Assembly (NCBI GenBank): GCA_027493445.1
Contig: JAOSKU010000001.1
Span: 2,190,822 to 2,254,821, forward strand
DNA length: 64,000 nt
Direction: 5' to 3'
Source of the DNA: Thermoleophilia bacterium
GTDB taxonomy: Bacteria; Actinomycetota; Thermoleophilia; RBG-16-64-13
Below the pieces are notes generated by a model that did not search any database, was not told the DNA's origin, and saw only the letters and a program-made list of their open reading frames with translations. Below are positions 15,057 through 58,185 of this stretch, in pieces; within the stretch, counting starts at the first letter, position 1; each line of letters begins with the position of its first letter. The translations under genes were made by a program, and so were the position numbers.

Positions 15057-15087
15057 AGCCCCAGCCGCCGCGGCGGCACTGGGCAGC

Positions 15088-27933: not shown

Positions 27934-27992
27934 GCCGAAGGCCCCTCGAAAACCCTAACACGTTCCTCACCCCCGCCCCTTTCGGGTTCTAG

Positions 27993-35501: not shown

Positions 35502-36710
35502 ATGTTCGTCCAGTTCTTCTTCCTGCTCCGCGCGCACGGGGTGCCCGTGACCCTCATGGAGTGGCTCGCCTTCACCGAGGCGCTGGTCCGCGGCCTCGCC
35601 GGCTCCAGCCTGACGGGCTTCTACTACCTGGGCCGCGCCGTACTGGTCAAGTCCGAGACGCACTTCGATCAGTACGACCAGGCCTTCGCGGCGGCCTTCC
35701 GCGGCGTGGAGACCCCCGCCGCACTGGCCCAGGCGATCTGGGAGTGGCTGGCTGAACCGAGCGGGCTCCTGGGCCTCTCGGATGCAGAGCGCCGGCTGAT
35801 GGAGCAGGCCATGGAGGCCCTGGACCTCGAGGACCTGCGCGCGCTGCTCGAGGAGCGCATGCGCGAGCAGGACGCCGCTCACCACGGGGGCTCTCATTGG
35901 ATCGGCACCGGAGGGACCTCGCCCTTCGGCCACGGGGGCGCGCACCGCAGCGGCGTCCGCCTGGGCGGGGTCGCCATGGGCCGCTCGGCCCTCAAGGTGG
36001 CCGAGGAGAGGCGCTACCAAAGCTACCGCACCGACGCCACCGTGGGCGTGCGCCAGTTCGAGCTGGCCTTGCGCCGGCTGCGCCGACTTTCCAGCCGCAA
36101 CGAGTCGCCTCCCGACGAGCTCGATCTCGAGGCCACCATCGACGAGACCGGCCGGCACGGCGGCGCCCTGACCCTGGTGTGGCGGCGCAGCCGCCGCAAT
36201 CAGACGCGGGTCCTGCTGGTCATGGACGCCGGAGGCAGCATGCACGCCCACACCCGGCTCTGCAGCCGTCTCTTCACGGCCGTCAACCGTTCCACCCACT
36301 TGAAGGAGCTGCGGCTGTATTACTTCCACAACTGCGTCTACGATCACCTCTACCTGGACCCCACCTGCCACCCGCGGAGTGCCGTGCCTACGACTCAGGT
36401 CCTGCGCGAGCTACCGGCCGACACCAAGCTCATCCTGGTGGGCGACGCGTCCATGGCCCCCTCGGAGCTGCTCCAGTCCGACGGCATCATCTGGTGGAGC
36501 ATGCGCAACGAGGAGCCGGGCATCGTGTGGTTGGAGCGCCTGGCCGGTCACTTCCGGCACGCGGTGTGGCTGAACCCTGTCCCGGCGGCTTCCTGGGAAG
36601 CCACCTACGGGCGAGAGACCATCGCCCTGGTGCGGGCCGTTTTCCCCATGTTCGAGCTCACGGTCGACGGATTGACCGCCGCCGTGCGCTCCCTGCTCGT
36701 GCGCCACTGA
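35502..36710 (+). CDS. VWA domain-containing protein (CoxE-like)
   Basis: A 402-residue protein. RVLLVMDAGGSMHAHTRLCS near residue 235 holds the MIDAS motif in the form DxGxS, the divalent-cation site of VWA domains. LFTAVNRSTHLKELRLYYFH and AVPTTQVLRELPADTKLILV continue the Rossmann-like fold. The N-terminal 200 residues are helical and typical of CoxE-like/YehP-type proteins. It is a partner of the preceding MoxR ATPase. The substrate metalloenzyme is unknown. Confidence 0.88.
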   Translation: MFVQFFFLLRAHGVPVTLMEWLAFTEALVRGLAGSSLTGFYYLGRAVLVKSETHFDQYDQAFAAAFRGVETPAALAQAIWEWLAEPSGLLGLSDAERRLMEQAMEALDLEDLRALLEERMREQDAAHHGGSHWIGTGGTSPFGHGGAHRSGVRLGGVAMGRSALKVAEERRYQSYRTDATVGVRQFELALRRLRRLSSRNESPPDELDLEATIDETGRHGGALTLVWRRSRRNQTRVLLVMDAGGSMHAHTRLCSRLFTAVNRSTHLKELRLYYFHNCVYDHLYLDPTCHPRSAVPTTQVLRELPADTKLILVGDASMAPSELLQSDGIIWWSMRNEEPGIVWLERLAGHFRHAVWLNPVPAASWEATYGRETIALVRAVFPMFELTVDGLTAAVRSLLVRH

Positions 36711-36743
36711 GGCCGGGCCGGCGCCTTCGGCGCGACCCTCGGC

Positions 36744-37115
36744 TCAACCCAAGCCCAGCAGGATGCTCAAGACCATCACGCCGAGCACTGTGAACGACAG
36801 GGCCGCGAACAGCCATTGGCGCCGACTCAGGTAGACCCCCAGCAGTAGCGCCACCCGCAAAGCCGGGGTCAAGAGCAGCGCGATCAGGCCTGCACTCAGA
36901 ACGGCCCCCGGATCGCCGCCGGCGAGACCACGTGGGATCTTCGGGATCGCGACCGAGGTCTCGGGCGACGCACCTCCTTTCACGGCTTCCAATACGAGCC
37001 CCAGCACCATGAGCGAGACCGACACCACGATCCCGGCCACAAGCACCGCCGACACCGCCTGATTGAGGGAGTGCTCCTCTGTGGGCTCGTAGGTGTCGGT
37101 GCTCGGGAAGCTCAC
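36744..37115 (-). CDS. DUF1634 membrane protein
   Basis: A 123-residue protein with three hydrophobic helices. LNQAVSAVLVAGIVVSVSLM and LIALLLTPALRVALLLGVYL are recognisable DUF1634 segments. Members of this family are nearly always next to a TauE/SafE exporter, as here, where its start overlaps the exporter stop by four bases. A role as an accessory subunit is likely but unproven. Confidence 0.75.
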   Translation of the reverse strand: MSFPSTDTYEPTEEHSLNQAVSAVLVAGIVVSVSLMVLGLVLEAVKGGASPETSVAIPKIPRGLAGGDPGAVLSAGLIALLLTPALRVALLLGVYLSRRQWLFAALSFTVLGVMVLSILLGLG

Positions 37116-37954
37116 CGAATACTCAGTCCAAACGCGGCCAAAATCATCTGCACCGACAGGACCAGGACCATAACCGAGAGCATGACCACCATTACCCCTC
37201 CGCGTACGTGGGGCGCCACACGCGAGCCTACGTAAGCGCCCAGGGTGATGCCCAGGGCTACCGGGACGGCCACCATGGGGTCCACGTAGCCCCGCGAGTA
37301 GTAGATGTACGCGCTGGCCGCCGCAGTCACGCCGATCATGAAGTTGCTCGTGGCGGCGGCCGCTTTGATGGGGACGCCCATCGCCAGGGTCATGACGGGC
37401 ACCTTGATCACACCTCCGCCTATGCCCAGCAACCCGGAGAGGTGGCCGGCCACGAGCGAGGCGGCGAGACCCACCGGCAGCCTACGAACCCGGTAGGTCA
37501 CCACCCGGCCCAGGTTGGGATCGAAGTAGCGGCCGCCGTAGAGGCCGGCCGTCTGAGCAAGGTTGGGGGTCGCACCGCGACCCCGCTGCTTGTAGAGCAT
37601 ATAGATCGCCACGATCAAGGTAACCGCGCCGAAGACGCCGCTCAAGGTCGCGCGGTCCAGGGCGGCGGCGGTCAACCCGCCCGCGATGGCCCCCAGGGTG
37701 GTGGCCGTTTCCATGGTGATGCCCAAGCGGATGTTGGTGAAGTCGTGTCGAACGTATCCCGCAGCGGCAGTGGTGGAGGTGGCCACCACCCCGACGATGC
37801 TCGCCCCGATGGCCTCGTGGACGGGGACTCCCAGAAACAGGCTGAGAACCGGGATGATGATGACGCCGCCGCCCAGGCCCACCATGGAACCCAGCGTGCC
37901 GGCGGCGACGCCCACCAGTCCGAAGATCAGCGTGTGCAATGAACCTCCGTGCAA
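37112..37954 (-). CDS. TauE/SafE-family anion exporter
   Basis: A 280-residue membrane protein with two repeats of the family motif: GTLGSMVGLGGGVIIIPVLS near the N terminus and LSGLLGIGGGVIKVPVMTLA in the second half. TauE/SafE proteins export sulfite, sulfoacetate or related anions. The gene lies 2.9 kb from an operon with a TauT-like transporter and a ThDP enzyme, which is circumstantially compatible with sulfonate degradation. The pair is convergent with the VWA gene. Confidence 0.9.
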   Translation of the reverse strand: MHGGSLHTLIFGLVGVAAGTLGSMVGLGGGVIIIPVLSLFLGVPVHEAIGASIVGVVATSTTAAAGYVRHDFTNIRLGITMETATTLGAIAGGLTAAALDRATLSGVFGAVTLIVAIYMLYKQRGRGATPNLAQTAGLYGGRYFDPNLGRVVTYRVRRLPVGLAASLVAGHLSGLLGIGGGVIKVPVMTLAMGVPIKAAAATSNFMIGVTAAASAYIYYSRGYVDPMVAVPVALGITLGAYVGSRVAPHVRGGVMVVMLSVMVLVLSVQMILAAFGLSIR

Positions 37955-37967
37955 ATGCGGTCACCAG

Positions 37968-38130
37968 CAGGCTGTTGTGAAATGACGCTTCGCCGCCGGG
38001 GTGCGCTGGCCGCGCGCAAGCCAAGGACCCAGGGAGCGCTCGTAGCAGCGCTACGGGCGCGACCGAGGACAACGCATGGGGCCGCCCAGTGCTGTCCGGT
38101 GGCCGATGTTTCGTTTTTCAACAGCCTCCT
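37968..38130. repeat. Dispersed TIR-bearing repeat, copy 2 (longest)
   Basis: About 163 bases with terminal inverted repeats: the left end caggctgttgtgaaa matches the reverse complement of the right end tttttcaacagcctcc. It contains the internal near-palindrome gtagcagcgctac. Copy 1 lacks 48 bases in the middle, and copy 3 lacks the TIR ends. No transposase is encoded; it looks like a non-autonomous MITE-like element or a bacterial hairpin repeat. It lies upstream of the TauE gene. Confidence 0.75.
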
Positions 38131-38289
38131 AGGGCGCTCGGAAAGACGCAGGCCTCACTCGCGCCGCATACTCTACCAGCAAGCACCGGAGCGGAAAGCG
38201 CGGACCACGAGCAGGGGGGCGGCAGGCGTACCCGCCCCCGCCCGGGGAGACGACGGCCTGCGTCCACCATCGGCTGTGATCGGAACGGC

Positions 38290-38723
38290 TCAGGCAGCTA
38301 CGGCCTCGCCTATGGCCGGGGCGGCCCCGATCTGCTGCATCAGGCCCATCATATCCGGGTAGTCCCAGGCCTCGATGATCTTGCCGTCGACGATACGGAA
38401 GGTGCTCATCCCCCAATGCAAACCAGGTTCCCCGTGGCCGGCACGCCCATGAAATCACCGGTGTGCTTGGCGGATCCGGCCCAGCGGACCAGGGCCAGAT
38501 CGCCGTCCCTCAGGATCACCGACTCGTCGCTTTTCCACTCGGAGAACGCGTCCATGAACATGTGGATCATCTGCCGGCGCCCTTCCCGGTCGCTGCCGAA
38601 GGGACCCGGCGTGCGGGAGACGAAGTTGGGGGCGAAGTACTCGTCGACCTTGTCGATATTGCCCCTGTCCCAGATCTCGGTCATGAAGTCGTCGATGTAG
38701 GCTTTGGTTTCTTCGGGTGTCAT
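38290..38723 (-). CDS. SnoaL-like polyketide-cyclase family protein, frameshifted
   Basis: The first frame (38406-38723) gives NIDKVDEYFAPNFVSRTPGP and ALVRWAGSAKHTGDFMGVPA, a SnoaL/NTF2-like fold with a hydrophobic cavity. At five C's (38410-38414) the frame breaks; the neighbouring frame continues GMSTFRIVDGKIIEAWDYPD and MMGLMQQIGA to a stop at 38290. Adding one base gives a normal protein of about 144 residues. Members act as cyclases, isomerases or binding proteins; the ligand is unknown. An insertion sequence lies 60 bases upstream of its start. Confidence 0.8.
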
Positions 38724-38782
38724 CGGATTTGCCTCCTCACCACCCTCACGGGTGGATGCTCGCGCTGCTGTCGTCGCACTAA

Positions 38783-40062
38783 GGCACCGTCAAGCAACAA
38801 CTAAGCGGTCATGCGGACGGATCACGTAGTTCCATTCGGGGTGGAACTCATCCCGGGTGAGGTTGACCGCCGCCAGCTGTGCGTCTGAGACCTTGATGCC
38901 GCGCTGGTAGGAGCGCTCGTCGAGGCGGGCATAGACCTCAAGCCCGGCGCTCGAGGTGGTGGCGCCGATCAGCGACACGATCGCCTGGCGCGAGACGAGC
39001 GGCTGCCCGCGCCAATTGCGGGTGATGAAGCTGAACAGGCGGTGTTCGATCTTGTTCCACTTCGAGGTGCCGGGCGGGAAGTGGCAGACTCTAATGGCGA
39101 GATTGGTCTCGTCGGCGAGCCGCTGGAGTTCGGTCTTCCACAGGCGCAGACGATTGCCGTTGGAGCCACCGCAGTCGGCGGTGATCGTCAAGGTCGTGGC
39201 GGTAGGGTAGCGCTGCCCGCCGAGGTGCTCCCACCAGCTGCGGATCGCCTCGACCGCAAACTCAGCGGTATCGGCGTCGATGCCGACGCTCACCCAGCCC
39301 GCGTTGCCGCCGATGTCGAAGACCCCGTAGGGGTTCACCTTGCCGAGCCCCTCGTCTTTGAAGTCGTGTACGCGGACCGGCACCGGAGAGCCCATCGGGC
39401 GCCACTCGCGTCCGGCGTTCTTGAAGTCTCCGACGAGCTCCTTCTTCTTGGTGTCGACGGAGATCACGGGCTCGCCGGCCTCAAGCGCCGCCGAGACCCT
39501 GGTGTTGATATGGTGGAACTGCGCGTCGCGGTCGGGGTGCGAGGCGCCCTCCTTGGTCTTGCGGTTCCCCTGCAGGCTGTACCCCAGTCGGCGCAACTGC
39601 TTGGCGACCGTCTCGTGGCTGACCCGATGGCCGCGCTCGCGAAGCGCGCCGGCGAGTGTGCGCACGCTCTTGGCCGTCCAGCGTAGCGGCGACTCGGGGT
39701 CGCCGCGGGCATCGTCGTCGACGAGGGCCTTGAGGTCGGCGAGCAGCGTCGGATCGGTCTCGGCGAGGGGCTTGCGGCCGCCTCCCGCGCGGCGCACCCG
39801 GCTGGCGGAGAAGCGCACGGGAGAGTCCAGGTCGGCGAGGCCGCGCCTGATGGTACCCACCGAGATCCCCGTGGCCCGGGCTACGGCGGCGGTCCCGCCA
39901 TACCCGCACGCGCGGGCCTCCGCCGCCGCCCAGAGGCGCCGGCGTCGCTCATCGAGTTCCCCCGCCAGCGCCCGATAACGTTCTCCGATGGCATGTTCGT
40001 CGATCACAGGACACTACTTCGCCACCCTCAGCCGATATCCTACTTGTTTGTTGACGGTTCCT
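38783..40062 (-). mobile_element. Complete ISAzo13-type insertion sequence
   Basis: A 1,280-base element bounded by imperfect 19-base inverted repeats, aggcaccgtcaagcaacaa on the left and its counterpart aggaaccgtcaacaaacaa on the right (16 of 19 match when overlapped with the flank). The direct repeat TAA flanks it at 38780-38782 and 40063-40065. It carries one intact transposase. The right edge is next to a small hairpin. This is a recent insertion, to judge from the intact gene and ends. Confidence 0.85.
38790..40007 (-). CDS. ISAzo13-family transposase
   Basis: A 405-residue transposase with an N-terminal HTH (YGGTAAVARATGISVGTIRR) and a DDE core: EPVISVDTKKKELVGDFKNA, TLTITADCGGSNGNRLRLWK and FPPGTSKWNKIEHRLFSFIT. 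These are the hallmarks of the ISAzo13 family. The protein is full length and starts in from the inverted repeat by 55 bases. No accessory genes are present. Confidence 0.92.
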   Translation of the reverse strand: MIDEHAIGERYRALAGELDERRRRLWAAAEARACGYGGTAAVARATGISVGTIRRGLADLDSPVRFSASRVRRAGGGRKPLAETDPTLLADLKALVDDDARGDPESPLRWTAKSVRTLAGALRERGHRVSHETVAKQLRRLGYSLQGNRKTKEGASHPDRDAQFHHINTRVSAALEAGEPVISVDTKKKELVGDFKNAGREWRPMGSPVPVRVHDFKDEGLGKVNPYGVFDIGGNAGWVSVGIDADTAEFAVEAIRSWWEHLGGQRYPTATTLTITADCGGSNGNRLRLWKTELQRLADETNLAIRVCHFPPGTSKWNKIEHRLFSFITRNWRGQPLVSRQAIVSLIGATTSSAGLEVYARLDERSYQRGIKVSDAQLAAVNLTRDEFHPEWNYVIRPHDRLVVA

Positions 40063-40066
40063 AATC

Positions 40067-40096
40067 CCGGCGGGCAAGACGACGATCGCCTGCCGG
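40067..40096. terminator. Hairpin after the Flx operon, next to the IS insertion
   Basis: CCCGGCGGG and CCTGCCGGG pair with one G.U to form a 9- or 10-bp stem 150 bases downstream of flxA. It lies four bases from the right end of the insertion sequence. It may end the hdr-flx transcript. No T-tract follows. Confidence 0.35.
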
Positions 40097-40248
40097 GCTC
40101 GTGTGACACAGATACATATCCCCCGGTCCCAGACCGACTAAGCCGCTCGCCTCAGGACGAAGCCTTGCGCGCGGGGACGCGCCGAGGATGGCACGATACG
40201 GCGTCCGGGGATGCCCTTTGAGACAGCTGTCGGGTGCGGAGGCTCGCT

Positions 40249-41170
40249 CTACAGCTCGTCGGGCAGCTCCCGGAGCTCGGCCATGCTGAAGACCGGCCCA
40301 TCCACGCAGACGTACCGGGGCCCGATGTTGCAGCGGCCGCAGATGCCGATGCCGCACTTCATCCTCTTCTCGAGCGTGGTGTAGATCTGATCGTCGGCGA
40401 ACTGCAGCTTCTGCAGGCTCTGCAGTACAAACTTGATCATGATGGGCGGACCGCAGGTGATGGCGTAAGTGTTGGCCGGTTTGGGATCGATCTCCTCGAG
40501 CACCGCCGGTACGAAACCCACTCGCTTGGTCCAGCCGGGGAACTCCCGGTCGACGGTGATCACGGCGTTGATGTCGTCCCGGGCTTCCCACTCCTCGATG
40601 TTGTACTTGTAGGTGAGATCCTCAGGGGAGCGGGCGCCGTAAAGGATGGTGATGTCGTCGTAGTCCGCCCGGTGCTCCAGCGTATGGTTGATGGTGGCGC
40701 GCAGGGCGGCCGAGCCGATCCCCCATGATGTAGAGGATCTTGCTGCCCTTCCAGGCCTCCATCGGGAAGCCGCAGCCCATGGGGGCGCGCACGCCCACTT
40801 TGTCGCCAACGTTCAGCTCGTGCAGAGCGGTGGTGACCTCGCCCGCCTTCATCACCGAGAACTGGATGTACTCCTTCTCCGAGGTGCTGGAGTTGATGGC
40901 GAAGGTCGATTCACCGGCACCGAAGACGCCCAGCTGCCCCACCTGACCGGGCTCGAACGAGAAGTTGCGCATGATCTCCTCATCGTCGAAGCGCACCCGA
41001 AAGGACTTGATGTTGGAGGTCTCCTGGATGATGTCCACTATGGTTGCGATCTCGGGGAGATAGGGGTTGCCGGCCAGTTTGCCCGCACGCGCGATGCCAG
41101 CGCCTCGCTGTACGTCGGCGAAGGTCAGGCGTTGCATGCCGCCGATGGCGGTCGGTTCGTTGGCGGCCAT
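40249..41170 (-). CDS. flxA: FlxA/AsrB-like FAD/NAD(P)- and [2Fe-2S]-binding subunit, frameshifted
   Basis: The first frame (from 41170) gives the FAD domain: FSFEPGQVGQLGVFGAGEST and KAGEVTTALHELNVGDKVGV. It breaks at five C's (40720-40724). The next frame continues IGSAALRATINHTLEHRADY, DPKPANTYAITCGPPIMIKF and the [2Fe-2S] motif CGIGICGRCNIGPRYVCVDG. Adding one base restores a protein of about 306 residues. The family (AsrB, sulfhydrogenase gamma, FlxA) transfers electrons between NAD(P)H and Fe-S subunits. As the NAD-binding member of this operon it is the likely NADH-oxidising subunit. Last gene of the hdr-flx cluster. Confidence 0.85.
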
Positions 41171-42283
41171 CTACGCCTCCTCTCCGGCCGGCGCGGCCGC
41201 GGATCGAGGGCTGCCCATGAAGCGCAGCACCTCGCGGATGTCGATGCGGGTAGGGCAGTGGGTAATGCAGCGCCCGCAACCCGAACAGAGAAGGCTGTCG
41301 TACTTCTCGGGGTAGTACCAGAACTTGTGGCTGAAGCGGTTGCGGAAGCGGTTCGACTTTTGCTCGCGCGGGTTGTGGCCCGAGGTTTCCAGCGTGTAGA
41401 GCGGATTGAAGCAGTTGTCCCAGGTGCGCATCCGCTCGCCCTTGCCCTCGACGATCTCGTCGGTGATGTTGAAGCAGTAGCAGTTTGGGCAGACGTAGGT
41501 GCAGGTGCCGCAGGAGATGCAGCGCATGCACAGATCGTGCCAGCCCGGGTCCTCGATGTTAGCCCGCAGGTTCTCGCGCACCCCCTCGATCTCGAAGGGA
41601 ACGTCGACCCGGGCTACCGCCTGCTCCTTGACGGTCTCCGCGTAGAGGGTCTGGGCTTGGCCGGCCTCGCTGAAGCCGACGAAGGCCAGCAGCTCCTCGC
41701 CCTTCTCGGTGAAGGCCTCGGCCGTGAGGCCGCCCTCCACCTGGGTCATGAGTACATCGGCGCCCTCGGTGCCGGCCGGATTGCCGCCCACGGCCGTGCA
41801 GAAGCAGGTGGAGCGGGGATCACGGCAGGTGACGGCCACCAGGGTGGTCGCCTCCCGCTTGGCGTTGTAGTAGGGGTCGAAGTAGAACCCCCCGTAACCG
41901 CCGAAGACGTTGTCCATCTGCACGAAGCCCCGCGCGTCGCAGGGGCGCAGGCCGAAGATGACCTGGGCGGGCGCGTCGTTCTGGGGCTCCACTTTCAGGA
42001 CCGCGTGGGCTCTGTCGGTCGCCGCGGTCACCTCGGCGCCGGCCGCGGCCACCCCTTCCATCTGGTAGCCGAAGCGCAGGTAGGTCTCCGACTGGCGGAA
42101 GACGTAGTCCTTGGGCGCCTGCTTGGCCAGGAGCACATCGAGCTCCACCGCCATGCCCGGCTCCCAGGGCCGGAACAGGACCACCCCGTCGGCACCCTTC
42201 ACCGGCGCCACCACCCGCCCCTGTCCGGCGAGGTGCCCGAGGAAGGCTTCAAGCTGGTCTTGGGCCAGGAATCGCATCGCCAT
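41171..42283 (-). CDS. flxB: FlxB/AsrA-like 4Fe-4S subunit
   Basis: A 370-residue protein. The N-terminal 200 residues resemble AsrA/sulfhydrogenase beta (VIFGLRPCDARGFVQMDNVF, VAVTCRDPRSTCFCTAVGGN). Two ferredoxin motifs follow: CMRCISCGTCTYVCPNCYCF and CSGCGRCITHCPTRIDIREV. It connects FlxA with the rest of the complex. It starts nine bases after the flxC stop and directly precedes flxA. Confidence 0.85.
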   Translation of the reverse strand: MAMRFLAQDQLEAFLGHLAGQGRVVAPVKGADGVVLFRPWEPGMAVELDVLLAKQAPKDYVFRQSETYLRFGYQMEGVAAAGAEVTAATDRAHAVLKVEPQNDAPAQVIFGLRPCDARGFVQMDNVFGGYGGFYFDPYYNAKREATTLVAVTCRDPRSTCFCTAVGGNPAGTEGADVLMTQVEGGLTAEAFTEKGEELLAFVGFSEAGQAQTLYAETVKEQAVARVDVPFEIEGVRENLRANIEDPGWHDLCMRCISCGTCTYVCPNCYCFNITDEIVEGKGERMRTWDNCFNPLYTLETSGHNPREQKSNRFRNRFSHKFWYYPEKYDSLLCSGCGRCITHCPTRIDIREVLRFMGSPRSAAAPAGEEA

Positions 42284-42292
42284 CCTCCTTTC

Positions 42293-43260
42293 CTAGTGCT
42301 CGCCGAGGGGGTCGTTGACGTCGAAGGTCTGGAACACCGGTTTGCCCTCCAGGCTGAGGCCCGCCTCGAACCCCAGCATCTCATGGAGCTCCTTGTTCAT
42401 CTTCCGGTGCAGCAAGTACAGCGGGATCTCCACCGGGCAGGCCCGGTCGCAGGCCCCGCAGCTGGGGCAACGCCCGGCTACGTGGAGCATGTGGATCATC
42501 TGGAACATGAGGTTCTCTTTGGCCCCCACACGCTGGCTCACCAGAGCCGGCTTCCGCGAGCGGCAGACACACTGGTCCCAGCACCAACAAACCGGGCACA
42601 CGTTGATGCAGGCGAAGCAGCGGATGCACGTCTCGAAGACCTCGGCCAGCTTGGCGTCCTTCTCTTCCGGCGAGAGGGCTTCGAACTCCTCGAGGCCGGC
42701 CCACATGGGCGTCTGGTCCACAGGTTCGGCGACCGGGTCGGCCGCCAGGTCGTCGGCGTAGGCGGGGTTGGGGTAGCGGCAGCTCTTGCAGTGGTCGAAG
42801 AGCAGGTCATCCTTGGCGAATTCCTGGCTCTCACCCGTGCGGGTGGTGGCTGTGACTTTCCCATCGGCGAATGAGATGTCCACTACTTCGTCGTTGAAAG
42901 CCTTCTCGATGCGGCGCCGGCTGACCACTCCGTCACAGGGAACGCCGATGACATAGATCTTCTCCTTATCGATCAGGTTCTCCTGGAGGAGGGCCACGAG
43001 GGTGCGACTGTCGCAGCCTTTCACGCACACCCCGATCCTGGAGCCGGGCGGGTCGGGCATCTTGCGCTTGAGGAAGGTGGTCAGGTTGTGGTGGGTCAAG
43101 GGTTCCACACCAGCTGATCGACGTCGGCCGCGTCACGTACAAAAGCCGGTATGACCTCCGAGCTATTGTAGGCGAACTTCCAGCCAATGACGTAGTCCAC
43201 GCGCCCCTGGCCGAGAGCAGCCGCGGCCAGCTCCCGGATCATGGCTTGGCGGTCGCTCAC
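42293..43260 (-). CDS. flxC: FlxC/FrhB-like Fe-S subunit, frameshifted
   Basis: The track ORF starts at 43108, but the N terminus lies in another frame: GTG 43260 overlaps the flxD stop (GTGA) and gives MIRELAAAALGQGRVDYVIG and AFVRDAADVDQLVWNP. One base missing at GGG (43100-43102) joins this to LTHHNLTTFLKRKMPDPPGS and GVCVKGCDSRTLVALLQENL, typical of coenzyme-F420-hydrogenase-beta-like proteins. The C-terminal part has two clusters, CIRCFACINVCPVCWCWDQC and CPSCGACDRACPVEIPLYLL. About 322 residues when corrected. It links MvhD/FlxD to the other Flx subunits. Confidence 0.82.
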
Positions 43261-43724
43261 AGGGCCCTCCCTTGCCGGGGCCCCAAAGCCTTGACCTTGG
43301 TGACGAAATCGGTGACCACCGACTGCCAGCGGGCCCCTTCCGAGGCCGACACCCAGGTGTAGTGGAAGCGGTCGGCCTCCACCCCCAGGTGGGGCAGCAT
43401 GCGGTCGAGCAGCTCGAACTTGCGCCGGGCGTAGTAGTTGCCCTCGCTGTAGTGGCAGTCGCCCGGATGGCAGCCGCTGATGAGCACGCCGTCGGCCCCC
43501 TTCTCGAAGGCCTTGATGGCCAGCAAGGGGTCGATGCGCCCCGTGCAGGGCACCCGCACCAACCGCATGTTCACGGGCTGCTTGAGACGGGCCGTACCTG
43601 CGCCGTCGGCGCCGGCGTAGCTGCACCAGTTGCAGACGATGCCGATCACCTTGACCTCTCGGGTCCCTCCCGTGGAGGCGGCGCCCGGAGCTTCTGCCGT
43701 TGCTGTTGCTTGAGCCATCGTCAC
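43257..43724 (-). CDS. flxD: MvhD/FlxD-type [2Fe-2S] protein
   Basis: A 155-residue protein of the MvhD (methyl-viologen-reducing hydrogenase delta) family. IGIVCNWCSYAGADGAGTAR and VLISGCHPGDCHYSEGNYYA carry the conserved cysteines. In known complexes this subunit docks HdrA and delivers electrons to it. It follows hdrA by seven bases and precedes flxC by a GTGA overlap. The first 20 residues are Ala/Thr-rich. Confidence 0.92.
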   Translation of the reverse strand: MTMAQATATAEAPGAASTGGTREVKVIGIVCNWCSYAGADGAGTARLKQPVNMRLVRVPCTGRIDPLLAIKAFEKGADGVLISGCHPGDCHYSEGNYYARRKFELLDRMLPHLGVEADRFHYTWVSASEGARWQSVVTDFVTKVKALGPRQGRAL

Positions 43725-43731
43725 CGCCTTT

Positions 43732-45717
43732 CTAGGAGAGGAGAGCTTCTTCGAGCTGGTCGATGAGCTGGTCGGTGGTGAAACCCTTGAGCTCGATGCA
43801 GTTTACTGGGCAGGTGGCCACGCAGATGCCGCAGCCCTGGCAGACGGTCTCGATGATATGGCTCTTCTCGGTGCCGTCGCGCAGCTCCTGCTTCTCGGGC
43901 GCGCTGAAGGGGCACACCTCGATGCACTTCCAGCACGAGACGCACCGGTTCTGGTCGACGATGGCGATCTGCGGGCTGGTCTTGAGCTTGTCCTTGGCCA
44001 GCAGACCCAGCACCTTCGCCGCGGTGCCCGAGGCCTGCGCCACCGCTGTGGGGATGTCCTTGGGCGACTGGCAGGCGCCGGCCAGGAAGATGCCGGCGGT
44101 GTTGGTCTCCACCGGGCGGAGCTTCGGGTGCGACTCCTTATAGAAGCCGAACTCGTCGTAGGAGATGTTCAGCTTCTGGGCCAGCTGCACCGAGCCGTCG
44201 GCGGCGGTGATGCCCGAGGCCAGCACCACCAAGTCGGCGGCGATCTCCACCTGCTTGCCGAGCAGGGTGTCCATGCCGCGTACCATCACCTTGCCATTGT
44301 CCTCGTAGAGCTTCGAGACCCGGCCCCGCACATACTTGACGCCGAACTCGGTCTGAGCCCGCTTGACGAACTCCTCGTAGCCCTTGCCCGTGGCCCGGAT
44401 GTCGATGTAGAAGACGTAGATCTCGGTGTCCATGCCTACATGGCTCTTGGTGAGGATCGACTGCTTGGCCGTGTACATGCAGCAGACACTCGAGCAGTAA
44501 GGGCGGCCCACCGACTCGTCGCGCGAACCAACGCACTGGATGAAGACCACGGTCTTGGGCTCCTCGGGCTCCTTGCCCTTGATGCCCATGGTGGAAGGCC
44601 GCACCACATGGCCGTTCGTGGGGCCCGAGGCGTTCAGCATGCGCTCGTACTGCAGGCCGGAGATGACGTCGGGAATGTGCCCCGAGCCGTATTCGTGGTA
44701 GTACTCCTCCCAGGGGAACACGTCGAGACCGGTCGCCGTGACGATGGCCCCGTACTGACGCTGCAGGTACTCGTCCTTCTGCTCGTAGTCCACGGCGTCG
44801 GCCGGGCAAACGCGTTCACACACCCGGCACTTGCCTTGGGTGAACCAGCGGCAGTGCTCCACCTGGATGGCCGCCCGCTTGGGGACCGCCTGCGGGAAGG
44901 GGATGTAGATGGCCTTGGTCTCGGCCAGGCCCACGTTGAAGACATCGGGCGCCTTCGCCGGACACTTCTGCACGCAGATCTCGCAGCCGATGCACTTGGT
45001 CCAGTCGACCATGGCCGCCTTCTTGCGGATATCGACTGTGAAGTTGCCCACGTAGCCCTGCACCCGGTCGATCTCCGAGTAGGCCAGGATCTCGATGTTC
45101 TCGTGCTGGGCGGCGTCGACCATGCGCGGCGTGAGGATGCAGGCCGAGCAGTCGATGGTGGGGAAGGTCTTGTCCAGGCGGGCCATGGTGCCGCCGATGG
45201 TGGTCTCCCTCTCCACGATGGTCACCTTGAGGCCGGCGTCGGCCAGGTCCAGCGCGGTCTGGATGCCGGCCACCCCTCCGCCGATGACCAGCACGTCCTT
45301 GTTGACGTCGACCTCGTTGGAGTACAGAGGCTCGAGCTGCCGCACCTTGGCGACGGCCATCTTGATGATCTCGTACGCCTTTTCGGTGCCCTGCTCGTAG
45401 TCATCGTGGATCCACGAGCAGTGCTCCCGGATGTTGGCCATCTCGTAGAGATAGGGATTGAGGCCGGCTCTGTCCACGCAACGGCGGAAGGTCACCTCGT
45501 GCATGTGGGGCGAGCAGGCGGCCACCACCACCCGAGTGAGGTCCTTCTCCCGGATGGCCTTCTCGATGGCGGCCTGCCCCGGCTCGGAGCAGGTGTAGAT
45601 GAGGTCCTCGGTGTGGACCACATCTTTCAGCTCGGCTGCGCGGGCAGCGATACCTTTGCTGTCGACGGTGCCGGCGATGTTCGTGCCGCAGTGGCAGACG
45701 AAGACTCCGATCCTCAT
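43732..45717 (-). CDS. hdrA: Heterodisulfide reductase subunit A-like flavoprotein
   Basis: A 661-residue HdrA. The N terminus RIGVFVCHCGTNIAGTVD is family-specific, followed by VLVIGGGVAGIQTALDLADA (FAD site) and KTFPTIDCSACILTPRMVDA. Internal clusters are CIGCEICVQKCPAKAPDVF and CRVCERVCPADAVDYEQ, and the C-terminal ones CVSCWKCIEVCPFSAPEK and CQGCGICVATCPVNCIELKG. HdrA carries the bifurcating FAD that splits electrons between ferredoxin and the disulfide branch. Length is typical of the bacterial forms without a fused MvhD. Confidence 0.94.
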   Translation of the reverse strand: MRIGVFVCHCGTNIAGTVDSKGIAARAAELKDVVHTEDLIYTCSEPGQAAIEKAIREKDLTRVVVAACSPHMHEVTFRRCVDRAGLNPYLYEMANIREHCSWIHDDYEQGTEKAYEIIKMAVAKVRQLEPLYSNEVDVNKDVLVIGGGVAGIQTALDLADAGLKVTIVERETTIGGTMARLDKTFPTIDCSACILTPRMVDAAQHENIEILAYSEIDRVQGYVGNFTVDIRKKAAMVDWTKCIGCEICVQKCPAKAPDVFNVGLAETKAIYIPFPQAVPKRAAIQVEHCRWFTQGKCRVCERVCPADAVDYEQKDEYLQRQYGAIVTATGLDVFPWEEYYHEYGSGHIPDVISGLQYERMLNASGPTNGHVVRPSTMGIKGKEPEEPKTVVFIQCVGSRDESVGRPYCSSVCCMYTAKQSILTKSHVGMDTEIYVFYIDIRATGKGYEEFVKRAQTEFGVKYVRGRVSKLYEDNGKVMVRGMDTLLGKQVEIAADLVVLASGITAADGSVQLAQKLNISYDEFGFYKESHPKLRPVETNTAGIFLAGACQSPKDIPTAVAQASGTAAKVLGLLAKDKLKTSPQIAIVDQNRCVSCWKCIEVCPFSAPEKQELRDGTEKSHIIETVCQGCGICVATCPVNCIELKGFTTDQLIDQLEEALLS

Positions 45718-46682
45718 GACGCGGCCTCCGCGCTTTCTTTCTCAGCCTTGGCTTTGGCCTTGGCCGCTTTCTCCGCCGCCTTGCGCTCCTCCTCGGCTTT
45801 CACTTCGGCGGCCTGGGCTACGGCCCGGTCGATCAGCGGCTTTGGATCGACCGCATGCTTGCCGAGCATCATCTCTTCGGCCGTAAAGCCGAGGGCCAGG
45901 CCGATCACCTGCGAGAGGTAGAGCACCGGCACCGAGAAGCTCGTGCCGCAGGCGCTGTTGACCTGAGCTTGACGCAGGTCCAGGTTTTGATGGCAGAGCG
46001 GGCAGGCGGTCACGATGGCGTCAGCACCGGCGTGCAGGGCCTGCTCCAGGATCTTGCGGGTCAGCACCTGCTGGATGATCTTCTTGGGCACGCCCACGCT
46101 GGCCCCGCAGCACTCGGTCTTGTAGTTCCACCACTTGACCTCGGCCCCGGCGGCGGCCAGCAGCTGGTCCATCTTCATGGGCTGCTCGTTGTCGCACTCA
46201 CCCGTGAGATCCGAGGGGCGGCCCAGCAGACAGCCGTAGTAGGGCACCACCTTGAGCTGGGAGAGGTCGGTCTTCACCAGACCGGCAATGGTCTCCAGGC
46301 CCACCTTCTCCACCAGCAGCTCGGGCAGGTTGAAGACGCGCACGTTGCCGGTGTACGGCGTGTCCATGATCTCGTTGACGGCCGCCCGCAAGGCATCGTC
46401 GGCGTGCACCTCGACCTCGGCGTTCTTCTCCCGCTGGTAGCAGGCCGGACAGGGAGCCACCAGCTCATCAGACACCTGAGCGGCCTGCCGCAGGTTGCGC
46501 GCGGCCAGGGCCTGGGCCAGCAGGTGGTCGGTCATGTGGGCCGGCGACGCGCCGCAGCAGGTCCAATCGGGCACCACTTCCAGGTCGACACCGAGAGCCC
46601 GGAGGACGGTGCGCGTCGAGCTGTCGAACTCTATCGCCGAGTGGCGTAACGAGCATCCGGGATAGTAGGCTAGCCGTGCCAT
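45714..46682 (-). CDS. hdrB: Heterodisulfide reductase subunit B-like protein
   Basis: A 322-residue protein with two CCG domains: DWTCCGASPAHMTDHLLAQA near residue 45 and KTECCGASVGVPKKIIQQVL near residue 195, with matching upstream cysteines. These bind the two noncubane [4Fe-4S] clusters of the disulfide-cleaving site. The C-terminal 40 residues form an Ala/Lys/Glu-rich tail (KAAEKAAKAKAKAEKESAEA) not present in methanogen HdrB. It overlaps hdrC by 13 bases and hdrA by four bases. The likely bacterial substrate is a protein or low-molecular-weight disulfide such as DsrC, but no dsrC is in the window. Confidence 0.93.
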   Translation of the reverse strand: MARLAYYPGCSLRHSAIEFDSSTRTVLRALGVDLEVVPDWTCCGASPAHMTDHLLAQALAARNLRQAAQVSDELVAPCPACYQREKNAEVEVHADDALRAAVNEIMDTPYTGNVRVFNLPELLVEKVGLETIAGLVKTDLSQLKVVPYYGCLLGRPSDLTGECDNEQPMKMDQLLAAAGAEVKWWNYKTECCGASVGVPKKIIQQVLTRKILEQALHAGADAIVTACPLCHQNLDLRQAQVNSACGTSFSVPVLYLSQVIGLALGFTAEEMMLGKHAVDPKPLIDRAVAQAAEVKAEEERKAAEKAAKAKAKAEKESAEAAS

Positions 46683-47230
46683 TTCGCCTTCTCCATCGCT
46701 TTGCGGTAGATGCGGCCGACCTCATCGGCCCCCTTGGCCTTCTTCGGTAGCACTTCGATCTTGCCCTTCGACATCATGGGCATGCCGAGGTCGGCGTCGT
46801 TCATGGGCTTGCGGGCGGCCATGTTGAACTTGACCAGGAACATGGCCTCGGTCAGCTGCCCGTATTTGGCGATGTTCTCGAGGAACAGGCGGTTGAAGGT
46901 GCTCGCGTGCTCGGGCACGGCGATCTTCTTCGCCACGGCCACGGTCTTGAGGTCCTCGAAGATGCCCGCGATGTCGATGTTGCGGGGACAGCGAGCCGTA
47001 CAGGTGAGGCACTGGATGCAGTTCTGCACCGCCGACGACTTCAAAACGTCGTCCACGAGGCCCACCTGCAGCATCCTCATGACCTGGTTGGGGGCGTAGT
47101 CGAAGGTGAAGGCGGCCGGACAACCGGCCGAGCAGTTGCCGCACTGGTAGCAGGTGGCAACATCGGTCTTCACCCTTTCCACCAGCTTCTCCCTTATGGA
47201 CGCAGCCTCCACAGCGTTGTACCGGATCAA
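46670..47230 (-). CDS. hdrC: Heterodisulfide reductase subunit C-like protein
   Basis: About 186 residues from a TTG at 47230, preferred because GGGAGG is six bases upstream and the predicted promoter would put an upstream ATG (47326) within seven bases of the transcription start. The motifs CYQCGNCSAGCPAAFTFDYA and CIQCLTCTARCPRNIDIAGI bind two cubane clusters that feed HdrB. First gene of the hdrCBA-flxDCBA operon. The track starts it at 47326 with a leader resembling no HdrC. Confidence 0.88.
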   Translation of the reverse strand: MIRYNAVEAASIREKLVERVKTDVATCYQCGNCSAGCPAAFTFDYAPNQVMRMLQVGLVDDVLKSSAVQNCIQCLTCTARCPRNIDIAGIFEDLKTVAVAKKIAVPEHASTFNRLFLENIAKYGQLTEAMFLVKFNMAARKPMNDADLGMPMMSKGKIEVLPKKAKGADEVGRIYRKAMEKAKWHG

Positions 47231-47339
47231 GCCAGCCTCCCGATCGATACGGACGGACGGGCCGCGGGGGTCCCCCAGAGCGCGCTCGTGACCATCCAGA
47301 GGGTGGGTTCGACAGCCGTGAGACACGGCGGCCCTGGGC

Positions 47340-47368
47340 AGTATAGCACCTGGGGAAACCCGTCACAA
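47340..47368 (-). promoter_or_regulatory. Predicted promoter of the hdr-flx operon
   Basis: On the minus strand TTGTGA (47368-47363) and TATACT (47345-47340) are separated by exactly 17 bases. This is the best sigma70-like promoter in the window. The start would be near 47333, with a leader of about 100 nt before the hdrC TTG. Confidence 0.6.
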
Positions 47369-47380
47369 GCGTCTTCTGTC

Positions 47381-47405
47381 CAAGCATTCAGTCGAAACAT
47401 GCTTG
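47381..47405. promoter_or_regulatory. Inverted repeat upstream of the hdr-flx promoter
   Basis: CAAGCAT and ATGCTTG are perfect 7-base arms separated by 11 bases, 13 bases upstream of the -35. The location fits an activator-type binding site. A second small palindrome, GCTTGTAAGC, overlaps its left flank on the plus strand. The regulator is unknown. Confidence 0.4.
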
Positions 47406-47516
47406 TAAGCAGGCCTTTTGTTTGAACGTCCAGCCAGGGCACCAGAAGCTTCAGAAATCCCTGCAAAAGAGGGGCGATGTGGTCCGACCAATAGACCGCT
47501 GGGCCAGAGAGTGTTT

Positions 47517-47640
47517 CGGAATGACGCTTCGCCGCCGGAGTGCGCTGGGTGCGGGCGAGGCAAGGACGCAGGAAGCGCGTGTAGCAGCGCTACGGACGCG
47601 ACCGACCACACCGCACCGGGCCGCCACGTGTGGCCTGGCG
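47517..47640. repeat. Dispersed repeat, copy 3 (diverged, without TIR ends)
   Basis: Shares aatgacgcttcgccgccgg and gtagcagcgctacg with copy 2 and follows the same order for about 120 bases, then diverges. The outer caggctgttg/caacagcctg ends are not seen. It lies between acs and the hdr promoter. Probably an old copy of the same element. Confidence 0.6.
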
Positions 47641-47725
47641 GCGCCAAGACACGCAGCGCCATCGCTCCGTCTCTCGGCATGACCCGCAGAGCTGCCCCTG
47701 GGACGCATGGGCCGTCAGGCGTCTA

Positions 47726-49681
47726 CTACCGAGCCCGGTTCTCCACCAAGTGCTCCACCACCGTGGGGTCGGCCAGGGTGGAGGTGTCGCCCAGGTCGCC
47801 CAGCTCGTTGGCGGCGATCTTCTTTAAGATGCGGCGCATGATCTTGCCGCTTCTGGTCTTGGGCAGGCCCGGAGCCCACTGGATGCGGTCGGGGGTGGCG
47901 ATGGGGCCGATCTGCGTGCGTACGTGGGCCCGAAGCTCCCTCTCAAGCTCGGCGGAGGGCTCGATGCCCACGTTCAAGGTGACGTAGGCGTAGATGCCCT
48001 GGCCTTTGATCTCGTGGGGCATGCCCACCACGGCCGCCTCGGCCACGGCCTGGTGGCTCACCAGAGCCGACTCCACCTCGGCCGTGCCTAAGCGGTGGCC
48101 GGAGACGTTGATGACGTCGTCCACCCGGCCGGTGATCCAGTAGTAGCCGTCCTCGTCCCGGCGGCAGCCGTCCCCGGTGAAGTAGAGGCCCGGGTACTGC
48201 GTGAAGTAGGTGGCAAAGAAGCGGTCCGGGTCGCCGTAGACGGCCCGCATCTGCCCGGGCCAGGGCCGGCGCAGGCAGAGGTTGCCCACCCCCGGACCCA
48301 CCACCTCTTGGCCGTCGGCGTCCAGGAGCACGGGCTCCACCCCGAAGAAGGGCAGGCTGGCCGAGCCGGGCTTGATCTTCATGGCCCCGGGCAAAGGGGT
48401 GATGAGGATGCCCCCGGTCTCGGTCTGCCACCAGGTGTCCACGATGGGGCAGCGGCCCCCGCCCACCACGCTAAAGTACCAGAGCCACACCTCGGGGTTG
48501 ATGGGCTCGCCCACCGTGCCTAGGAGGCGCAGGGAGGAGAGGTCGTGTCTTCTGACCCAGTGGTCGCCCTCGCGGGCGATGGCTCTTAAGGCGGTGGGGG
48601 CGGTGTAGAAGGTGTTCACCTGGTACTTCTCTACCACCTCCCAGAAGCGGTCACAAGCCGGGTAGCTCGGCACCCCTTCAAACAGGACCGAGGTGGCCCC
48701 GTTGGCCAGGGGGCCGTAGACGATGTAGCTGTGCCCGGTCACCCAGCCGATATCGGCCGTGCACCAGAAGACGTCCTCGGGGTGGTAGTCGAAGATCAGC
48801 TGGTGGGTGTAGCTCACGTAGACGGCGTAGCCGGCGGTGGTGTGCATAACCCCCTTGGGCTTGCCGGTGGAGCCCGAGGTGTAGAGGATGAAGAGCGGGT
48901 CTTCGGCCTCCATCTCGGCGCAGGGCGAATCGGTGCTGATGTCGCAGGCGGCCATCTCCTCGTGGTACCAGCAGTCCCGGTCCGCCACCCAGCCTATGTC
49001 CCTAAGGCCGCTGTGGTTGACCACGATCGCGCAGGTCACGCTGGGGCAGGCCGAAAGGGCCTCATCGGCGGCCGCCTTTAGGGGCACGGTCTTTCCCCCC
49101 CGCCGGCCGCCGTCGGCCGTGACGAGGAGGCTCGATTCGCAGTCTAAGATGCGGTCGCGCAAAGAGTCGGCCGAAAAGCCACCGAAGACCACGCTGTGGA
49201 TGGCCCCCAGGCGGGCGCAGGCCAGCATGGCGATGGGCAGCTCGGGGATCATGGGCAGGTAGATGGTGATCCGGTCGCCCTTCTTTACCCCCTTCTTGCG
49301 CAAGACGTTGGCGAAGCGGGCCACCTCCTCATAGAGCTGGCGGTAGGTGATGGTGCGGCTCTCCCCGGGGGAGTCGCCCTCCCAATAGTAGGCCACCTTG
49401 TCGGCCACCTCGGTCCCCAGGTGGCGGTCTAAGCAGTTGTAGGCGAGGTTGAGGCGGCCGCCCTCGAACCAGCCGATCTTGGCCCGGGCGAAGTCGTGGT
49501 TCTGGACCGTGTGCCACTTCTTAGACCAGGTGATGCGTTCGGCCACCTCACTCCAGAAGGCATCGGGGTCCTCTAGGGAGCGGCGGTACATCTCCTGGTA
49601 CTGCTCCATGCTCGCCACGTAGGCCCGCTTCTGGAAATCGGGGGGGACGTCAAGGATGCTTGGGCGCTCGTCAAGGCTCAC
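47726..49681 (-). CDS. acs: Acetyl-CoA synthetase (AMP-forming)
   Basis: A 651-residue Acs. [20 protein letters not shown] is the AMP-binding P-loop, the core motif is [19 protein letters not shown], and [17 protein letters not shown] holds the catalytic lysine that is subject to acetylation control. It starts at GTG 49681 with GGAGGG five bases upstream. It begins 36 bases after the amiB stop and so forms the end of the amide operon, where it would turn the acetate released from acetamide into acetyl-CoA. Full length and intact. Confidence 0.95.
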
Positions 49682-49717
49682 TGAAACCCTCCGCCGTCAA
49701 GGTCGCTTGTTCTTGGC

Positions 49718-50767
49718 TCACGGCTCCTCTCCCGGTCTTCGGTCCTCAGTTCTTGCTGCGATCAAACGGATGGCCTCCCCAGGCGCGCTCGAGCGCATAT
49801 CGCGCACTGCGACCAGCTCCAAAGGCTCTCTCGATCCATGATCGGAGAGCAACAAGCGGGCAAGCGGGTTTTCGACGTGGCGGCGTAGCGCCCGCTTCAG
49901 GAACCTGGCGCCGAATCTTCGGTCGAAGCCGACATCAAGAAGGAACTCGCGGGCGGCTGAATCCACCGACAGCGACACGTTGTGTGAATATAGCCGTCTG
50001 TTTAGATCGTCCACCAGAACATCGAGAATGCGGTTAAGTGCATCTCGATCAAGCCAATTGAAGACGATTGTGTCGTCAAGCCGATTGAGGAATTCAGGTG
50101 CAAATCGCTTGTGGAGTTTCTTGTCGATGATCCACTCAAGAACGGCTGCGTCCCCTTGCCCTGAGTGCCTGTGTCGCAGCCGAAAAAGGAATTTCCGCCA
50201 CAGGAATCTTGGCCGACTATGCGCATAATCCTGAATCTCGCGGGCACCTATGTTGCTAGTCATAAAGACGAGCGTATTCTTGAAGTTTATGGTTTCCAGT
50301 CCTGATGTAAGCTGCAGAAGACCATTGTCCATGATATTCATGAGAGCCTGAAGAACAGTGTCGCTCGCCTTCTCTACTTCGTCGAACAAGACAATGCCAG
50401 GCAAGTAGAAGGACCCCTCTATCTTCTCCTTGTTCAGGACCGTCGCTTCCTCGCGGCTGCCCACATAACCCGGAGGGGCTCCTACCAGGGAAGCTGAGTA
50501 GTGTTCCTGGGCCAGAGTATTCATGTCGACCCGGCAATGCGCCTCGACATCACCGCAGAGTCCGATGGACAGGGCTCGGACGGTCTCTGTCTTGCCGACC
50601 CCTGTTGGTCCGAGGAAAAGTGCCGTATACAGCGGCTTGTCCTTCTCCGATATACCGGCCTGAGCGATGGCAAGCGCAGCCTCGACCTGATCGAGAGCCT
50701 CCCCCTGCCCAATGATCCGCTCGTGCAGATACGCCGTCACTGCGCGGAGATCGAAGTGGTAGGACAC
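49718..50767 (-). CDS. amiB: AmiB-like AAA+ (ClpA/ClpB D2-type) ATPase
   Basis: A 349-residue, single-ring AAA-2 protein. FLGPTGVGKTETVRALSIGL is Walker A and GIVLFDEVEKASDTVLQALM is Walker B, with sensor SLVGAPPGYVGSREEATVLN and the C-terminal D2-small domain GARFLKRALRRHVENPLARL. It resembles AmiB of the Pseudomonas amidase operon. It has no N-terminal substrate-recruitment domain and lacks a ClpP-binding loop that I can see. It lies between amiE and acs, 70 bases after amiE. The likely job is chaperoning the amidase or its transporter. Confidence 0.85.
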   Translation of the reverse strand: MSYHFDLRAVTAYLHERIIGQGEALDQVEAALAIAQAGISEKDKPLYTALFLGPTGVGKTETVRALSIGLCGDVEAHCRVDMNTLAQEHYSASLVGAPPGYVGSREEATVLNKEKIEGSFYLPGIVLFDEVEKASDTVLQALMNIMDNGLLQLTSGLETINFKNTLVFMTSNIGAREIQDYAHSRPRFLWRKFLFRLRHRHSGQGDAAVLEWIIDKKLHKRFAPEFLNRLDDTIVFNWLDRDALNRILDVLVDDLNRRLYSHNVSLSVDSAAREFLLDVGFDRRFGARFLKRALRRHVENPLARLLLSDHGSREPLELVAVRDMRSSAPGEAIRLIAARTEDRRPGEEP

Positions 50768-50837
50768 TCGGAGTTCCTCTGGCTCGTGGGGAGCGGTCGA
50801 CCGAGCCCTTGCGCGGCCCGGTCGACCCGCACCTTCG

Positions 50838-51884
50838 CTACCTGGTCGCTACCTTCTCGCGCCCCTCGTTGGGGATGCCGGCGATCGGACATTCCGCCGT
50901 GCCGGCCGTCTTCCGCGTAATGGCTTCCACGTTCTCCCGTGCTTTTTGCGCGTCGGTGACCCAGGTCCGGTAGAACTCGTACGGGCAGTCGGCTACGCCC
51001 TCGGGGCCTTCTTTGGAGTTGATCTTGCCCGTGTAGCCCCGGTGTAGCAGCTTGAACAGATGGTTCTGGGACTGCCAGTTCTTGCGCGCATCCCTGATAG
51101 CCTCGATAGAGAGCTCCGCGTACTGGTTCCCCATCTCTTCTTCGGCGCACTCGCCCAGTACCCGCCCGTCGAAGCCGACGATCACCGAGTGCCCAAAGTA
51201 CGAGTACACCCCATCGAATCCCGTGGCGTTGGCCACCGCAACGTAGGCTGTGTTTTGCCAGGCCGAAGCCTGAGCCACGATGCGTTGCTGCTCCTTGGAA
51301 GGATACATGTATCCCTGGCATCGAACGATGAGCTCCGCGCCCCGCATGGCGCAATCACGCCAGATTTCCGGATAATTGCCGTCGTCACAAATGATCAGGC
51401 TGGTCTTGAGACCCTTGGGTCCCGTGGTGACGTACGTCTGAGTCCCTGGATACCATCCCTCGATGGGTACCCATGGCATGATCTTCCGATACTTCTGGAC
51501 GATCTCGCCCTTGTCGTTGATCAGAATCAGGGTGTTGTACGGGACCTTCTTCGGATGCTCCTCGTGCTTCTCTCCAGTCAGCGAGAAGACGCCCCAAACC
51601 CTATTCTTCTTGCATGCAGCGGAGAATATCTCCGTTTCCTCTCCGGGTATTGTCGCGGAGAGCTCCATCATCTCATCGAAGTCGTACAGAATTCCGTGCG
51701 TGCTGTACTCGGGAAAGATGATGAGATCCATTCCCGGCAAGCCAAGCTTCAAGCCGCTCATGTAGTCGGCAATGGAATTACAGTTATCGATTATCTCCTT
51801 CTTCGTGTGAAAGCGCGGCATCTTATAGTTAACCACTGCCACACCCACATACTGGTCACTTGAGCTAATATCCCCGTGTCGCAT
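50838..51884 (-). CDS. amiE: Aliphatic amidase
   Basis: Starts at ATG 51884 ([20 protein letters not shown]) with GGGAGAG six bases upstream; the start matches the known AmiE N terminus. The 348-residue enzyme is a nitrilase-fold hydrolase with Glu in [15 protein letters not shown], Lys in [20 protein letters not shown] and the nucleophilic Cys in [20 protein letters not shown]. It hydrolyses short aliphatic amides such as acetamide to carboxylate plus ammonia. The hexamer-forming C terminus is present. It lies 165 bases downstream of amiS. Confidence 0.96.
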
Positions 51885-52049
51885 TCTTAGCTCTCCCTTG
51901 CCTGATTGATTCACGCACGTACACCCTCAACCACTTCTCATATCCTATGTGTCCTCTTTCACCGCAATAGATCACCTCCCGAATGCTTGCGTACTTCCGT
52001 CCTTATAGAATGAGCCTCCGCACGTCCTCTCTCGTGTTCTGCGCGCCAA

Positions 52050-57098: not shown

Positions 57099-58185
57099 CT
57101 ACTCGAAAACCCGCACCAATGTGTAGTCGGTGCGCCGTTGCGCGGGCACGAAACCGGCCGCCCGGATGGCAGCCACCAGATCGCCGGCGGCCACCTTGAA
57201 GCTCACCCCGGCAGCCGCCACGACGTTCTCCTCGATCATGGTGCTGCCCAGGTCGTTGGCGCCGAAGTGCAGGGCCACCTGCCCCACTGCGAGCCCCTGG
57301 GTCACCCACGAAGCCTGGATGTTGCGCACGTTGTCGAGGTAGAGACGGGAGACACCCAGAGTCACCAGGTACTCCACGGCCGTGGCCGGCGGAACCGTGC
57401 CCTCGAGGGCGGTGTTCCCTTCCTGGAAGGTCCAGGGGATGAAGGCCCGGAAACCGCCCGTCTCGTCCTGCAGGTCGCGGATGCGGCGCAGGTGCTCCAC
57501 CCGCTCCTCGAGGGTCTCGACGCTGCCGAACATCATGGTGGCGGTGGTCGCCATTCCCAGCCCGTGCGCCTCACGCATCACCCCCAACCAGGGCTCGGTG
57601 CGGGCTTTCTTAGGGGCCACCTGTTGGCGCACCCGATCGACCAGTATCTCGGCGCCGCCCCCAGGCAGGGAGTCGAGGCCGGCGGCGTGGAGGCGGGCCA
57701 GGGTATCGCGCACGGAAACGTCGCTCACCTTGGCGATGTGCAGGATTTCGGGGGGGAGAGGGAGTGGATGGTGATGTCGAAGCGCTCCTTGATGGAGCGG
57801 AAGAGGTCCTCGTAGTAGGCGATGTCGAGGTCGGGATGGTGCCCGCCCTGCATGAGGATGGCCGTCCCCCCCAGGTCGAGCGTCTCCCGGATCTTGGCGA
57901 AGATCTCGTCCTTGGCCAGCAGGTAGCCCTCGGGAGAACCGGGCGACCGGTAGAAGGCGCAGAAGTCGCAGCCGGTGAGACAGACGTTCGAGTAGTTGAT
58001 GTTCCGGTCGATGATGAAGGTGGCCAGGTCGTCGGGCACCAAGCGGCGGCGCTGAACGGTGGCCAGCTCCCCAGGGCAAGCAGGTCGCGGGAGCGCAGCA
58101 GGGCGACGGCCTCGGCGTCGGTGATACGGACGCCCGCCCTCATCTTGTCGCGGACCGTTTCCAGCACGTTCGCATTCTCTGACAT
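57099..58185 (-). CDS. mqnC: Cyclic dehypoxanthinyl futalosine synthase MqnC, two frameshifts
   Basis: Starts at ATG 58185 (MSENANVLETVRDKMRAGVR). It breaks at CCCC (58069-58072); the next frame has NYSNVCLTGCDFCAFYRSPG, the CxxxCxxC radical-SAM motif, then breaks again at seven G's (57750-57756). The last frame gives HIAKVSDVSVRDTLARLHAA, TATMMFGSVETLEERVEHLR and SWVTQGLAVGQVALHFGAND. Corrected, it is about 362 residues, typical of MqnC. The enzyme performs the radical cyclisation step of the futalosine route to menaquinone. Other mqn genes are not in the window. Confidence 0.88.

Follow-up and report, generated by a model that had tools for sequence, protein, structure and literature searches.

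A FlxABCD-HdrABC gene cluster in a family of Thermoleophilia and a disulfide partner that is probably not DsrC

Background

We found the seven genes hdrC-hdrB-hdrA-flxD-flxC-flxB-flxA together on one strand in the genome of an uncultured member of the Thermoleophilia. The cluster probably encodes a soluble FlxABCD-HdrABC complex that bifurcates electrons, or works in reverse, and whose disulfide in this family of bacteria is not DsrC, the sulfur-carrier protein that accepts one of the split electrons in sulfate reducers. The first-pass annotation of this DNA had assigned the cluster to the complex known from sulfate reducers; the family of complexes was correctly recognized, but the sulfate-reducer setting does not apply to this genome, which has neither a DsrC match nor a DsrB match above the curated cut-off.

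The cluster adds a member to the known FlxABCD-HdrABC complexes. Both the complex and the gene order have already been published, and the substrate of HdrB in DsrC-free bacteria is a question already in print; the comparative setting is what makes the cluster useful. The family offers many genomes with a near-universal complex and with DsrC missing, beside a sister clade that has both. This allows a defined comparison, in which the carrier can be searched for and the change of HdrB upon the loss or gain of DsrC can be followed. Our literature search for FlxABCD together with Actinobacteriota found no publication.

Sequences and genomes compared

The window is the whole stretch of 64,000 nucleotides that was analysed (contig JAOSKU010000001.1, positions 2,190,822 to 2,254,821), and plain positions below refer to it. 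We compared 61 genomes, including 18 from the window's own family and eight from a sister family of the same class. A separate draw of 150 genomes covered the phylum.

Results

Gene order and transcript

The open reading frame listing and profile searches placed all seven genes in the interval 47326 to 40249 of the minus strand:

hdrC, 46670 to 47326, minus strand: subunit with two 4Fe-4S clusters, the putative electron path from HdrA to HdrB (TIGR03290, 3e-21; Fer4_17, 1e-10)
hdrB, 45714 to 46682, minus strand: predicted disulfide-reducing subunit with two CCG domains (CCG PF02754, 1e-24, in two stretches; TIGR03288, 4e-55, ending at residue 285)
hdrA, 43732 to 45717, minus strand: FAD and Fe-S subunit, the presumed site of bifurcation (NF040770, 5e-244)
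flxD (mvhD), 43257 to 43724, minus strand: putative [2Fe-2S] link between Flx and HdrA (FlpD/MvhD PF02662, 6e-49)
flxC, 42293 to 43260, minus strand: Fe-S subunit related to FdhB/FrhB; its GTG start overlaps the flxD stop
flxB, 41171 to 42283, minus strand: predicted Fe-S subunit resembling sulfhydrogenase beta / AsrA (Fer4_22, 1e-31; NF040829, sulfhydrogenase beta, 4e-39)
flxA, 40249 to 41170, minus strand: predicted input subunit with FAD, NAD(P)H and [2Fe-2S] (sulfhydrogenase-gamma type PRK08345, 7e-30 for the N part and 3e-34 for the C part)

The hdrABC and flxABCD genes are contiguous, and in this assembly flxC and flxA have to be read across a frame break. The genes, order and strand agree with the first-pass annotation, and the family matches are far beyond chance. 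The annotation had overlooked both frame breaks and had extended the cluster to 47405; hdrC starts at or inside 47326, and the remainder is upstream DNA. The start codon of hdrC is itself uncertain, as the alignment of most relatives begins only at about residue 22-29.

From hdrC through flxA, the intergenic gaps are -13, -4, +7, -4, +9 and 0 bases. Because the genes overlap or lie nine bases or less apart, hdrCBA-flxDCBA is likely to form a single transcript. The sole promoter-like site 5' of the cluster (47368-47340) is of a kind that occurs at chance frequency; promoter and terminator scans likewise gave matches at chance level, and an Rfam scan of 36000-52000 gave none. A dispersed repeat about 150 bases long occurs in the window at 47502-47650, 37973-38086 and 27991-28109. 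It has 67 matches in the genome, and some copies stand in tandem at a spacing of about 163 bases.

Hdr subunits

HdrA is 52% identical to the methanogen HdrA (5ODC chain A) over 640 positions and keeps 29 of its 31 cysteines. In one ferredoxin motif, five inserted residues follow the first cysteine. According to a proposal reported in PMC12054007, a Lys/Glu pair near the N5 of FAD distinguishes proteins that bifurcate from those that do not. The pair is present here, K418/E358 aligning with K409/E356 of 5ODC, and the earlier reading, which had been made to depend on a bifurcating flavin signature in HdrA, thus withstood this check on the sequence.

Both CCG domains were found in HdrB, and their cysteines are conserved in the alignment. 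The long Ala/Lys/Glu tail that had been pointed out on this protein is real: it has about 39 residues, with 15 Ala, 7 Lys and 8 Glu among 39. The tail characterizes this bacterial family: each of its HdrB proteins that was read to the end carries it, and those of the sister family and of Desulfoscipio have a short tail or none. We considered and set aside a special function for the tail, the composition of which is conserved more than its sequence. A charged extension is also present on at least one further cluster protein, the FlxA of a relative's locus (L003).

Flx subunits and the electron donor

In FlxA, the NAD(P)H-binding domain and the [2Fe-2S] site were both found above the cut-off (PF00175 and PF10418). 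The CGPP motif and the four [2Fe-2S] cysteines are kept in the FlxA of relatives, and the solved structure closest to an intact FlxA from a relative is the sulfhydrogenase gamma subunit 9nez_C. The NAD(P)H-binding loop differs: 12 of 12 sequences of the family have GGIGSAA or GGIGAAA in place of GGIGxAP. The proline is kept, as GGIG[Q/M/L]AP, in every FlxA read from outside the family, namely those of the sister family, four other families of the phylum, Ilyobacter and a Eubacteriales MAG. As the proline is replaced by alanine throughout the family, the use of NAD(P)H is less certain here than elsewhere.

The clade profile of FlxC matches FdhB of 7bkb (5e-31). With the altered loop, this relationship to an F420-linked protein would suit a complex that no longer uses NADH and takes electrons from another carrier, such as F420, through FlxA or the FdhB-like FlxC. 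We regard this as improbable, given that FlxA has otherwise conserved nucleotide and [2Fe-2S] motifs and that FlxC matches the C-terminal FrhB/FdhB Pfam domain weakly and the N-terminal one not at all. A structure of FlxC predicted from six sequences had a mean pLDDT of 51, too low for a judgement, and was not used.

Frame breaks in flxC and flxA

The flxC frame breaks near 43100, where the sequence is one base shorter than in seven relatives, and the flxA frame breaks near 40720, where it is two bases shorter than in five relatives. The latter break lies in a G-rich run, GGGGG here and GGGCGGG in several relatives. G-rich runs are frequent error sites in long-read assemblies. The same cluster occurs in 12 members of the family, three of which have it truncated at the end of a contig, and in four sister-clade members; flxC and flxA each stand in one frame there. 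In G001, a genome of the same genus, flxC is unbroken. Elsewhere in this assembly, mqnC (57105-58072) also changes frame, near 57750, and adjacent matches lie in different frames at three of the genome's four other HdrA loci. Since the two genes are whole in relatives and frames are broken elsewhere in the genome, assembly errors are likelier than pseudogenes.

Were the breaks true mutations, the complex would be dead in this strain, leaving HdrABC and FlxD without NADH input. Both breaks do fall in the same functional half, and an ISAzo13-family element is close to them, but the broken frames elsewhere in the assembly, the whole flxC of G001 and the G-rich setting of the flxA break make such a loss unlikely. 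The element is a transposase gene at 38790-40007 on the minus strand, directly downstream of flxA.

Distribution of the complex, DsrC and DsrB

Among the 61 genomes, FlxC is present in 17 of the 18 of the window's family and in all eight of the sister family; the single family member without it is 76% complete. In a tree of concatenated HdrA, FlxD, FlxC and FlxB, the sampled family is monophyletic (support 100) and is sister (100) to the Dsr-bearing sister family, which likewise forms a fully supported clade. The clusters of the two families are thus orthologous.

The first-pass annotation had remarked that the terminal disulfide partner was not visible, and indeed a search for dsrC in this genome gave no PF04358 match. 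DsrB above the curated cut-off was found in none of the 18 family genomes, this one included, vs eight of eight in the sister family. The two-cysteine DsrC and the DsrAB of the sulfate-reducer system were accordingly not found in this genome at the level of PF04358 and of the DsrB cut-off. A DsrC-like protein above the cut-off occurs in four of the 18 family genomes, and all four keep the last cysteine only, the second C-terminal cysteine being missing. All eight sister-family genomes have a DsrC-family protein (one, G052, the divergent type only), and the sister-family DsrC that was read has both redox cysteines. This genome is 91.8% complete, so the absence of a gene from it proves little by itself and the argument rests on the family-wide pattern. 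If DsrC does not serve the family, the disulfide partner would have to be another thiol/disulfide carrier.

We weighed whether the siroheme-reductase matches of the genome could be a Dsr system and decided against it, as neither reaches the dsrB cut-off; the stronger one adjoins a frame that, on inspection by eye, looks like a CysH-like reductase. The second NIR_SIR match (L021, G000:C1:2947474-2948055) is a short frame below that cut-off.

In the phylum-wide draw, FlxC was found in 28 of 150 genomes, seven of which have DsrB and eight DsrC, DsrC being missing in 20. FlxC and DsrB are positively associated (Fisher p = 1e-4, relatedness ignored). The complex and Dsr thus often occur together, although the complex does not depend on Dsr. 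In all eight phylum loci inspected, FlxD and FlxB flank FlxC, and HdrA and FlxA accompany them.

Neighbouring genes

The window holds the complex I genes nuoC, nuoD, nuoH, nuoL and nuoM, with no nuoF in it or in the 12.8 kb to its left, as well as the alpha and beta genes of a 2-oxoacid:ferredoxin oxidoreductase. A reduced complex I and KorAB had been reported here, and both are present. From this co-location, an interlocked electron network is plausible, and ferredoxin from the complex could feed the complex I of the window.

In relatives, the steadier neighbour of the cluster, vs complex I and KorAB, is menaquinone synthesis by the futalosine route. The mqnC and mqnE genes, above curated cut-offs, lie upstream of hdrC in five genomes of the family, two close relatives (L006 and L007) and four genomes of the sister family; in this genome, about 10 kb separate mqnC from the cluster. 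HdrB also matches the profile of the menaquinol:fumarate reductase anchor subunit (5e-44). Both observations would fit a high-potential branch that ends in the menaquinone pool through an adaptor and not in a soluble disulfide. This is very unlikely, however: the cluster has no membrane subunit, HdrB keeps both CCG domains, and the DsrC-bearing sister clade has the same mqn linkage, which is therefore no stand-in for a disulfide.

Four other HdrA loci of this genome (L022, L023, L024 and L025) lie on G000:C1 near 3.63, 3.82, 4.58 and 2.65 Mb, respectively. L022 has HdrA with a Vhu/Mvh-type hydrogenase. L023 and L024 have it with aldehyde-ferredoxin-oxidoreductase-like genes, and L023 also has NuoF. 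One of the latter two also has HdrB and HdrC, and with this second HdrBC pair, a thiol/disulfide carrier in the organism becomes more believable. At 11444-16317 on the minus strand, genes for ETF alpha, ETF beta, an ETF-QO/FixC-like flavoprotein and an acyl-CoA dehydrogenase stand in a row, possibly a second, Fix-type bifurcating system. A GlpC-like CCG protein and an aldehyde ferredoxin oxidoreductase are neighbours at the right edge of the window, which the pair spans (62739-63941 and L075:6561-10660).

Discussion

Proposed mechanism

The seven products would assemble into a single complex in which NADH reduces the FAD of FlxA. From there the electrons would move along the Fe-S centres of FlxA, FlxB and FlxC, reach the [2Fe-2S] cluster of FlxD and then enter the FAD of HdrA, where the pair would be split. 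One electron would leave through the ferredoxin domains of HdrA to free ferredoxin; the other would cross HdrC and arrive at the two CCG clusters of HdrB, where the disulfide would be reduced. The reverse, from reduced ferredoxin and a dithiol to NADH, would be equally possible. In the window's family, a thiol/disulfide carrier other than DsrC would take the place of DsrC.

A bolder proposal, which we hold only tentatively and think doubtful, is that the whole family has a DsrC-free FlxABCD-HdrABC with a novel thiol/disulfide carrier, and that the altered loop of FlxA shifts the donor preference or the direction. A natural comparison is offered by the orthologous cluster of the Dsr-bearing sister clade.

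Comparison with known systems

The methanogen complexes HdrABC-MvhADG (5ODC) and HdrABC-FdhAB (7BKB) share with this cluster HdrA with its flavin pair, HdrB, HdrC and MvhD, and FlxC is related to FdhB, but they have no Flx NAD(P)H unit. Methanogen Hdr complexes take electrons from H2, formate or F420H2, and their acceptor is CoM-S-S-CoB.

FlxABCD-HdrABC is known from Desulfovibrio (Nitratidesulfovibrio) vulgaris, and Bilophila wadsworthia has the order hdrCBA-flxDCBA (PMC12125255). All seven subunits are shared with these bacteria, and the gene order is identical to that of Bilophila. The disulfide partner in Desulfovibrio is DsrC, which is cited in PMC10504309 as interacting with the Flx-Hdr complex, whereas neither DsrC nor DsrB was found here. 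Flx-Hdr is also known from bacteria that do not reduce sulfate. Syntrophomonas BUT1, of another phylum, has a flx-hdr cluster and no DsrC, and the need for an unknown carrier has been stated for it (PMC6687939). The plasmid of Ilyobacter polytropus, again from another phylum, shares the flx-hdr cluster, but in the order hdrB-hdrC-hdrA-flxDCBA and with a FlxA that keeps GGIGLAP.
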